From Nitrososphaerota archaeon (GTDB lineage: Archaea; Thermoproteota; Nitrososphaeria; Nitrososphaerales; Nitrosopumilaceae): 49,796 bases of DNA. Shown in pieces: positions 28,432 to 31,089 of the stretch; position 1 is the first letter of the stretch, and each line of letters begins with the position of its first letter. Under the pieces are notes generated by a model. It saw only the letters and a program-made list of their open reading frames with translations, made no database searches and was not told the DNA's origin. A program made the position numbers and the translations under genes. The stretch spans positions 1-49,796 of the forward strand of contig JAJPGX010000005.1 in assembly GCA_021325595.1 (NCBI GenBank). The letters are read 5' to 3'.

Positions 28432-29352
28432 CTATTTGATTCTACCTTTTTCCATCTTACCTGCAAGTAACATGGGTACTTCAGCGGGTCTTTTTGCAAC
28501 AGGGACGTTAGCCTTGGCATACATTGAAACCTTTGATTCTGCAGAGCCATAATTTCCATAAATTATTGCACCGGCATGTCCCATTCGTTTCTCTTTTGGT
28601 GCGGCTCTTCCTGCGATGTATGCAACTACTGGTTTGTCAAATTTAGTATCAATGATATGTTGTGCAAGCATCTCTTCCGCATCTCCTCCAATTTCTCCAA
28701 CTACTACAACACCATCAACATTAGTTCCATTGCGGATTCTTTCAAATGCTTCGATTAAGGGAGTACCATTGATGGGGTCACCCCCAATTCCTAAACAAAT
28801 GCTTTGACCAAAATTTGCAAGTGATAAATTGTGGGACACTTCGTACATCAAAGTTCCACTTCTTGAGAGAACAGCTATTCTTCCCGGTTTGAACGGTGAT
28901 GCAGGCATAATTCCGATCTTGATTACTCCTGGAATTATTATGCCTGGAGTATTTGGTCCTATCACTATGGCATCTTTCTTTTTTGCCAAGTCAACTACTG
29001 TTAATGCATCTTTGACTGGTACGTGTTCTGGAATTGCAATTAACAATTTTATGCCTGATTCAAGGGCATCTATTGCAGCACTAAGAAAAAACTTTGCAGG
29101 TACAAAAACAATTGAAATTTTTGCACCTGTTGCTGATACCGCATCTTTCATGTTTTCATAGATTGGTATTTCTTCAATTTTTTGTCCACCCTTTCCTGGT
29201 GTAACCCCAGCTACAATATTGGTTCCATATGCACGCATTTGTTGTGTATGAAATGATCCAAACTTGCCAGTTATACCTTGTACAATAACTGGTTTTTTCT
29301 TATAGTCGTTTTCTCCTTCTTTTCCAATTAGTAATTCAAAAAGATCAACCAT
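28432..29352 (-). CDS. sucD: Succinyl-CoA synthetase (ADP-forming), alpha subunit
   Basis: Couples succinyl-CoA and succinate with ATP/ADP; the alpha subunit holds CoA and the phosphohistidine. The 306 residues show the CoA-binding Rossmann region (IVQGITGKFGSFHTQQMRAY), IGPNTPGIIIPGVIKIGIMP, the phosphate helix region SRSGTLMYEVSHNLS, and the catalytic His259 in EKRMGHAGAII. Its start overlaps the end of sucC by 8 bp, typical of the sucCD operon. A propionyl- or other acyl-CoA substrate is possible but less likely. Confidence 0.94.
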   Translation of the reverse strand: MVDLFELLIGKEGENDYKKKPVIVQGITGKFGSFHTQQMRAYGTNIVAGVTPGKGGQKIEEIPIYENMKDAVSATGAKISIVFVPAKFFLSAAIDALESGIKLLIAIPEHVPVKDALTVVDLAKKKDAIVIGPNTPGIIIPGVIKIGIMPASPFKPGRIAVLSRSGTLMYEVSHNLSLANFGQSICLGIGGDPINGTPLIEAFERIRNGTNVDGVVVVGEIGGDAEEMLAQHIIDTKFDKPVVAYIAGRAAPKEKRMGHAGAIIYGNYGSAESKVSMYAKANVPVAKRPAEVPMLLAGKMEKGRIK

Positions 29353-30457
29353 TTTTGTTTACCTCAATCACTGCAGCATTTATTGCTTCTTCAATTGTAT
29401 CAAACATTTTAGTTCTTGAACCTTTTAGCATTTCTTTTGATTTGTCTGCTTCTGATCCAGACATTCTTGCAAATACTGGTATGTCAATAACTTTATTTTC
29501 ATATGCTTTGATAAAGGCAGTAGCAACAGTTGTTGTTTTTACAATTCCTCCGTAAAGATTTACTAGTATGCCTTTTACTTTTTTCATTTTACTAATTAGT
29601 GTAAGTGCTTCATATACTGTCTCTGTAGTAGCCCCTCCACCCACGTCCAAAAAACAGGCTGGTTTTCCTCCATGGTCTGATAACATGTCAAGTGTAGACA
29701 TGACCAATCCTGCACCATTTCCAACAACTGCTATGTTTCCATCTAACTCTACTAGTGAAAAACCGCTTTTTTCTGCTTTTTCTTCTAATTCTGAAATCTC
29801 TTGAAACTTTCTTAACTCATCGTGTCTGAACATTGAATTATCATCAATTATGACTTTGCCATCTAGTGCTACAAGTGAATCGTCCTTTAGTATTGCAAGC
29901 GGGTTAATTTCAGCAAGCTCTGCTTCTTTTTCCACCGTTACTTTTGATAATTTTTGTAATATGTCTACGAACTGAGCCAACGACTTGTCTTTCAGGCCAA
30001 TCTCTTTTCCAACCTCTTCTGCAGTTTTAGCATCTACGTTTCCAAGACCAACTTCGCGTATTATCTGACTCTTTACAGATTCTATTTCCACACCTCCTTC
30101 TGAGGAAGTAATTATAGTATAGCATCGTTTACCGCGATTTAAAAATAAAGATAAATACAATTCTTTTTTAATATCTGCCATTTTTTCAAGAAGTATTGCT
30201 TTTGTCTTTTCGCCCTTGACTACTTTTTGCATGATTTCTGGATATTTTAATTCAAATTCATCGGCATTATGACATTTTTGAATTGCGCCAGCTTTTCCTC
30301 TTCCACCTACTGCCATCTGAGCTTTTATCACAAACGGAAACCCTAAAGCATTGGCATCTTTTCTACCCTGTTCAATATCGGTTGATGTTAATCCCTTTGG
30401 AATAGGAATGCCATATTCTGCAAATAACGACTTTGCTTGATATTCTAGCAGGCGCAT
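29345..30457 (-). CDS. sucC: Succinyl-CoA synthetase (ADP-forming), beta subunit
   Basis: The nucleotide-binding partner of SucD, 370 residues. The ATP-grasp domain begins MRLLEYQAKSLFAEYGIPIP, with FVIKAQMAVGGRGKAGAIQ as the nucleotide loop, LAEINPLAILKDDSLVALD for Mg, and the C-terminal flavodoxin-like half with GGKPACFLDVGGGATTETVY and ILVNLYGGIVKTTTVA. The promoter is a GATTATAAG box about 25 nt upstream of ATG 30457, so the sucCD mRNA is probably leaderless. Confidence 0.95.
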   Translation of the reverse strand: MRLLEYQAKSLFAEYGIPIPKGLTSTDIEQGRKDANALGFPFVIKAQMAVGGRGKAGAIQKCHNADEFELKYPEIMQKVVKGEKTKAILLEKMADIKKELYLSLFLNRGKRCYTIITSSEGGVEIESVKSQIIREVGLGNVDAKTAEEVGKEIGLKDKSLAQFVDILQKLSKVTVEKEAELAEINPLAILKDDSLVALDGKVIIDDNSMFRHDELRKFQEISELEEKAEKSGFSLVELDGNIAVVGNGAGLVMSTLDMLSDHGGKPACFLDVGGGATTETVYEALTLISKMKKVKGILVNLYGGIVKTTTVATAFIKAYENKVIDIPVFARMSGSEADKSKEMLKGSRTKMFDTIEEAINAAVIEVNKNG

Positions 30458-30537
30458 GATGGTTTGTCATTTTTATGGTCTTATAATCTGTTTGTTGAAT
30501 TTTGCTAATTTCTGATTTGTTATGATCTCAAATTCTA

Positions 30538-30592
30538 TTCTAATTCTCTTTATTTTTCAAATATCACAAATTAGAATTTTTATGATAAAGAG
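30538..30592. repeat. Interleaved inverted repeats in the sucC upstream gap
   Basis: TTCTAATT (30538-30545) is complementary to AATTAGAA (30569-30576), and CTCTTTAT (30546-30553) to ATAAAGAG (30585-30592). The two pairs interleave rather than nest. They may be operator half-sites or RNA structure; AT-rich composition makes chance pairing possible. Confidence 0.35.
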
Positions 30593-30603
30593 AGTTAAAA
30601 ATA
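30591..30603 (+). promoter_or_regulatory. Possible TATA box for the hairpin RNA at 30625
   Basis: AGTTAAAAATACC is centred about 26 nt before 30625, the first base of the 9-bp outer stem of the hairpin. The spacing would place a transcription start at the foot of the hairpin. Confidence 0.4.
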
Positions 30604-30624
30604 CCTTGTATGAGACTAGAAATA

Positions 30625-30685
30625 GTTTTGGAGTAGGACCATGGCAAGATAGGTGTCATAAGACACTTGGTTCTATCTCCAAAAC
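30625..30685 (+). ncRNA. Candidate structured ncRNA in the 302-bp gap between sucC and 30760
   Basis: The gap 30458-30759 has no plausible protein gene. Inside it a 61-nt segment folds strongly: GTTTTGGAG (30625-30633) pairs with CTCCAAAAC (30677-30685); TAGGACCA (30634-30641) pairs with TGGTTCTA (30668-30675) with one G-U pair and a single bulged T; an apical GTGTC/GACAC stem has the loop ATAA (30658-30661). An 11-nt one-sided internal loop separates the lower and apical stems. A TATA-like element precedes it on this strand, and another (TTATATTTG, about 30711-30720) faces it on the other, so the strand is uncertain. It does not fit a tRNA. Terminator, riboswitch and protein-binding site remain open. 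Confidence 0.45.
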
Positions 30686-30759
30686 ATCTTGATTTGATTA
30701 TTAATAATTTTCAAATATAATTACATTATGTTGATTGTCGATCCTAGTTTGTCTGATAT

Positions 30760-31089
30760 TTACCTGAATTGTTCTTCTAGATAGTCTATGGAAGTTAAAA
30801 GCAGATCTTTGCTTTTCTTCATTAACCATAGGGGGAACTCGTCCAGAGTAAATACGAATTGTTGCTGGAAGCTAGGTACTATACCTCCGCCAGACGTGAT
30901 TACCTGAACTACCACATATCCTTCAACCAATGTACAAACGGTTTCCTGATATGATTCTCCCTCCTCTTCCATAGTATTTCGATATAATATGATTGGAGTC
31001 GTGGTCTTGCCAACATGAGACGAACCCTTTTTTAAAAGCACAGAAAAGTGAGATAACAGCCATCCGTCAAGGGTAATTTGTTTTGGCAT
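30760..31089 (-). CDS. Hypothetical protein, 109 aa
   Basis: A soluble protein with no family that I recognise: MPKQITLDGWLLSHFSVLLK, GKTTTPIILYRNTMEEEGES, then VEGYVVVQVITSGGGIVPSF, and an amphipathic C-terminal helix (LMKKSKDLLLTSIDYLEEQF). The alternation of short strands and one helix suggests a small alpha/beta fold. It follows ileS by 44 bp on the same strand and may be cotranscribed with it. Start ATG 31089. Confidence 0.6.
   Translation of the reverse strand: MPKQITLDGWLLSHFSVLLKKGSSHVGKTTTPIILYRNTMEEEGESYQETVCTLVEGYVVVQVITSGGGIVPSFQQQFVFTLDEFPLWLMKKSKDLLLTSIDYLEEQFR

Follow-up and report, generated by a model that had tools for sequence, protein, structure and literature searches.

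The gap between sucC and a conserved 109-aa open reading frame in a genome of Nitrosotalea, a genus of acidophilic ammonia-oxidising archaea from acid soils, holds a strong hairpin, and this raises the question of whether the hairpin belongs to one of its neighbours or constitutes a gene of its own. The window analysed here, i.e., the whole stretch of 49,796 nt, had been interpreted earlier from its letters alone, and this sequence-only reading favoured a small RNA with its own promoter. Comparison with related genomes indicates that the hairpin forms the central part of a small RNA gene not catalogued before. Probably, this is a stand-alone non-coding RNA gene with its own promoter and a nitrogen-regulon operator, whose product would be a trans-acting riboregulator.

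The intergenic gap (30458-30759, 302 bp) contains no ORF of at least 60 aa, in agreement with the previous description of a region without protein genes upstream of sucC. The strength claimed for the hairpin is also borne out, since the + strand of 30625-30685 folds with -28.0 kcal/mol, compared with a mean of -11.4 for shuffled sequences (z -6.55, equalled by 0 of 200 shuffles); the - strand is weaker (-22.0 kcal/mol, z -5.1). A 17-bp stem with one bulge and an asymmetric internal loop had been correctly described, although the loop, which is one-sided, comprises 10 nt and not 11, and the apical stem, carrying the loop AUAA, has 6 bp and not 5. An alternative fold, in which AGATAG would pair with CTATCT, had also been suggested. 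The AGATAG motif exists, at 30647-30652 and not at 30648-30653, but this fold is unsupported because the motif is found in this species only, its relatives having GGCAAGA-GGG or GGCAAGA-GAG. The GGCAAGA sequence, located on the 5' side of the internal loop, is invariant, and can be regarded as a candidate pairing or protein-binding site. Moreover, the feature exceeds its earlier description, as it begins with a 26-bp dyad and is conserved to about 30730 (Table 1).

Table 1. Coordinates of the RNA block and of the genes at both sides of it in the window.
Feature	Position	Strand	Basis and remarks
sucC, succinyl-CoA ligase beta subunit	29345..30457	-	ATP-grasp_2, Ligase_CoA
26-bp dyad TATCACAAATTAGAATTTTTATGATA, putative operator common to amt, glnK and the 227-aa ORF	30562..30587	+	alignments, pattern search
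BRE/TATA element AAGAGAG TTAAAAATA	30588..30603	+	genus-conserved; TATA 7 nt past the dyad; putative core promoter, from spacing
Predicted transcription start, first hairpin base	30624..30626	+	from spacing, ~26 nt past the TATA centre
Main ncRNA hairpin (stem, one-sided internal loop, apical stem)	30625..30685	+	folding, alignments, covariation
GGCAAGA, unpaired motif in the internal loop	30643..30649	+	invariant in 25/25 aligned sequences; putative contact role
TATAATTACATTATG, conserved AU-rich 3' hairpin, tentative RNA 3' end	30716..30730	+	alignments, arm pairing
p109, conserved uncharacterised 109-aa ORF, ileS side of the block	30760..31089	-	ORF call, conservation

When the gap was searched against 60 related genomes, region 30560-30690 was found to be conserved in many congeners. 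The covariance search of related genomes proposed in the sequence-only reading has been carried out with two models of the hairpin (R2 and R3). Strong copies are present in 25 of 37 Nitrosotalea genomes (R3, E <= 2.2e-13), whereas R2 detected no copies in 280 genomes of the same order, belonging to 63 further genera, and R3 gave only chance-level scores elsewhere in the family. A named carrier with a closed genome is N. devanaterra (LN890280.1, about 742283-742366, complement). In the 1.64-Mb genome of the window the hairpin is single-copy, and in all the loci with mapped flanks the block lies beside p109 and/or sucC. The RNA is missing from several near-complete Nitrosotalea genomes, and is therefore dispensable; the block has disappeared from the bavarica clade, and in some genomes the dyad is all that is retained, no convincing degenerate hairpin copies being found in these dyad-only genomes with search filters off. 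No match to the 4227 Rfam families was obtained at gathering score across the whole window, a permissive Rfam scan returned chance-level matches only, none on the hairpin, and a tRNA scan found none.

Compensatory changes in relatives, whose absence had been named in the sequence-only reading as part of what would refute it, are evident. In 25 distinct sequences, 92.3% of the cells are paired and 8 of the 23 pairs have changed on both sides, compared with 3.5 in shuffles, which ignore the relatedness of the sequences (0/500), and 1-3 in slid controls, which preserve it; the covariation score is 0.198 versus 0.109 +/- 0.007. Helices 2-3 contain 38 G-U cells but only 3 A-C cells, and therefore the + strand is the RNA strand. 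These wobble pairs also bear on the possibility of a DNA- or terminator-type hairpin separating the p109 and sucC units and giving no RNA of its own. Such a function would agree with the intergenic location downstream of p109 and with a terminator-like pattern called on the + strand; however, the strand fixed by the wobble pairs is opposite to that of p109 and sucC in the window, the unpaired GGCAAGA is invariant, and promoter and operator are conserved alongside at fixed spacing. Furthermore, other genera manage without the hairpin, with a p109-sucC gap of 35-45 bp in 39 loci. Taken together, a terminator is quite improbable.

The block is found between p109 and sucC in two orientations. In the window and one clade (orientation A) it points away from sucC, while the clade of N. 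devanaterra has it in the direction of sucC (orientation B); dyad, TATA and RNA are intact in both cases. A tree of p109, SucC and the C-terminal part of IleS agrees with A being the ancestral state and with a single inversion basal to the devanaterra clade (support 100/99), although the placement of the window itself is weak (80/33). Since dyad, TATA and RNA have remained together through the inversion, they constitute their own transcription unit and not a sucC leader, and sucC has its own conserved promoter stretch (about 30460-30497). Thus, judging from gene order, the RNA is independent of the neighbouring operons, being neither a leader of sucC nor part of such an operon.

Taking into account the short gap of other genera, the block was gained within Nitrosotalea. 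This gain, together with the palindromic character of the hairpin and its single flip of orientation, could recall a mobile-element remnant (a MITE-like palindrome), which had been mentioned as an option in the earlier interpretation. Nevertheless, the hairpin occupies one place per genome, with the exception of apparent assembly duplicates in one MAG, and has no related copies elsewhere; its stem has evolved by compensatory changes genus-wide, and promoter and operator have been kept, all of which makes such an origin highly unlikely.

In most Nitrosotalea the p109-sucC gap as such (L039-L107) is from 150 to 2,450 bp long and carries varied inserted ORFs, behaving as an insertion hotspot. In two deep relatives (L045 and L143/L046; G012) it contains a different hairpin of ~61 nt (GAAACTGTAGGCC...CCGTGTGAGCACGG...GCCCACAGTTTC), which is unmatched by R3 and was not found in a DNA search of the other genomes among the 37 Nitrosotalea. 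For the p109 product, neither Pfam nor NCBIfam gave a match above cutoff.

With respect to the start of the RNA, the TATA-like element noted earlier about 26 nt ahead of the hairpin is confirmed as TTAAAAATA at 30595-30603, the distance being measured from the TATA centre. The same order is found in both orientation classes: the 26-bp dyad, 7 nt, TTAAAAATA, and the hairpin ~26 nt from the TATA centre. This is the usual distance between TATA centre and start in archaeal core promoters, and therefore the predicted RNA begins with the hairpin. The TATA box would drive a + strand transcript from ~30625; its N. devanaterra counterpart would begin with AGTTTTGG. It has to be noted that in most orientation-A species an ATG adjoins this predicted start, so that a leaderless small ORF beginning with the hairpin (MFWSKGHGKRVS... 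in these species) was considered. It was rejected because 1-nt indels shift the reading frames, the lengths vary (12-40 aa), and an ATG start is lacking both in the window and in orientation B; a coding function at this place is scarcely credible.

A structured, riboswitch-like 5' leader of a downstream gene deserves more attention. In this case, the gene would originally be an ORF of ~122 aa that follows the hairpin at about 180 nt, on the same strand, in most orientation-A species, and one locus (L189:1949-2000, genome G021) retains dyad and TATA beside a remnant of this ORF, the hairpin being gone. However, the species do not have the same downstream gene: the ~122-aa ORF is absent from the window and from orientation-B species, and in the latter the next gene is sucC, situated hundreds of bases away and provided with its own conserved promoter. 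In addition, conservation falls past the AU-rich 3' hairpin, which in orientation A is often followed by a T-rich stretch. A leader is thus unlikely. The ~122-aa ORF (L007:1808-2176 and orthologues) is uncharacterised and belongs to a paralogous family, of which the window's genome contains 7 distant copies.

Returning to the stand-alone RNA gene, its transcript would present the covarying hairpin first, displaying the GGCAAGA loop, and would probably end near the AU-rich hairpin, at about 30730. This 3' end is less certain than the rest of the RNA. The AU-rich hairpin is weak in several orientation-A species; it is located ~90-100 nt past GGCAAGA in most species and ~73 nt in the window.

The dyad connects the RNA with nitrogen metabolism. 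In relatives it reaches a perfect TATCATAAAATT-NN-AATTTTATGATA, the copy in the window having 3 mismatches to the consensus pattern, and this pattern yields 46 sites in 12 genomes versus 9 with a reversed control pattern. The genome of the window contains four dyad sites, which precede the ammonium transporter gene amt (C38:47930), the P-II protein gene glnK (C38:50429), an uncharacterised ORF of 227 aa (C4:31330) and the RNA. The amt and glnK sites were found in all the complete congeners with an amt-glnK locus examined; they are also present in N. bavarica and in G034, where the RNA is absent, and the glnK dyad occurs at two further loci (L219, L220) outside the Nitrosotalea set. Since the dyad is common to amt, glnK and the 227-aa gene, we infer that the RNA is under the same nitrogen/ammonium signal, and it is probably co-regulated with ammonium uptake and nitrogen sensing. 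The small RNA with its own promoter proposed in the sequence-only reading is upheld by the fixed-spacing TATA, the RNA-type covariation and the conservation of both orientations, while the operator link to amt and glnK goes beyond it.

The dyad, which is unlike the known NrpR sites, would control transcription of the RNA as it would for amt, glnK and the 227-aa gene. It lies 7 nt from the TATA box in the promoters of amt and of the RNA, and about 38 nt in that of glnK, where it is ~31 nt (three helical turns) farther away. A place just upstream of the TATA box is usual for archaeal activators, and this arrangement suggests activation rather than repression.

In another genus (L217), amt and the 227-aa gene diverge from a common region that contains a dyad-like site, and the product of the 227-aa gene is therefore a candidate nitrogen regulator. 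Searches of this conserved protein (L180:1596-2279 (-); G000:C4), whose gene has a promoter dyad of its own, against Pfam and PDB sequences returned no match and no DNA-binding domain. In other Nitrosopumilaceae genera (L206, L208, L203, L214, L216 and L218, about 1501-1700), a dyad of this kind precedes by exactly 63 nt the ATG of a conserved membrane microprotein with 36 aa (MAEAGMAAFG...ALRGKGHPEPL), and in Nitrosotalea a MAEAG relative of 53 aa is encoded divergently from amt. The identification of the amt-adjacent microprotein as AmoY or AmoZ was discarded, as the sizes reported for these (PMC10030591) do not fit.

Among known RNAs, the nearest analogue is sRNA154 of Methanosarcina mazei, which is expressed under nitrogen starvation and acts on mRNAs of nitrogen metabolism (PMC5867862). 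Both are intergenic archaeal RNAs with stable stem-loops, genus-wide conservation and nitrogen control, the last being deduced here from the common operator. As in an sRNA154-like RNA, there is an own intergenic promoter, judging by sequence (the conserved TATA keeps its spacing, and the block is whole in either orientation), and an operator shared with nitrogen-assimilation genes, namely the dyad upstream of amt and glnK. However, no sequence relation was seen between them, the organisms belong to different phyla and no nif genes are involved in the Nitrosotalea case; analogy, and not membership or homology, is proposed. As a probable RNA output of a nitrogen-assimilation regulon, it also resembles GlnZ (PMC9731577) and other nitrogen-controlled bacterial sRNAs, but the enterobacterial GlnZ is released from an mRNA 3' UTR, whereas the Nitrosotalea RNA has its own predicted promoter.

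Archaeal H/ACA and C/D guide RNAs are likewise small and of similar size, with a hairpin and an internal loop. Both identities were rejected, the first on the basis of a variable 3' end (AAACA or AAACG), without a conserved ACA end, and a one-sided loop instead of a two-sided guide pocket, and the second because a C box (RUGAUGA) and a D box (CUGA) are absent from 30625-30735, as read by eye; neither guide type has an Rfam match here.

With regard to function, the RNA would most likely be expressed in step with amt and glnK under ammonium shortage, or be switched off like them when ammonium is abundant. It would most likely act in trans, GGCAAGA contacting an mRNA or a protein; the beginnings of amt, glnK and the 227-aa gene contain no complement of this motif.

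Among the open-access papers searched, none was found on regulatory RNAs, or on transcriptional control in response to nitrogen, in ammonia-oxidising archaea. It is conceivable, and tentatively put forward here, that the dyad defines an undescribed nitrogen-control regulon of Nitrosopumilaceae-type ammonia oxidisers, including amt, glnK, the 227-aa candidate regulator and the membrane microprotein, to which Nitrosotalea would have added a riboregulator tuning ammonium uptake versus ammonia oxidation. For these organisms ammonium is both fuel and nitrogen source, and the question of their nitrogen control becomes directly testable now that a concrete operator, the genes behind it, a candidate regulator and an RNA have been brought together in one proposed regulon.
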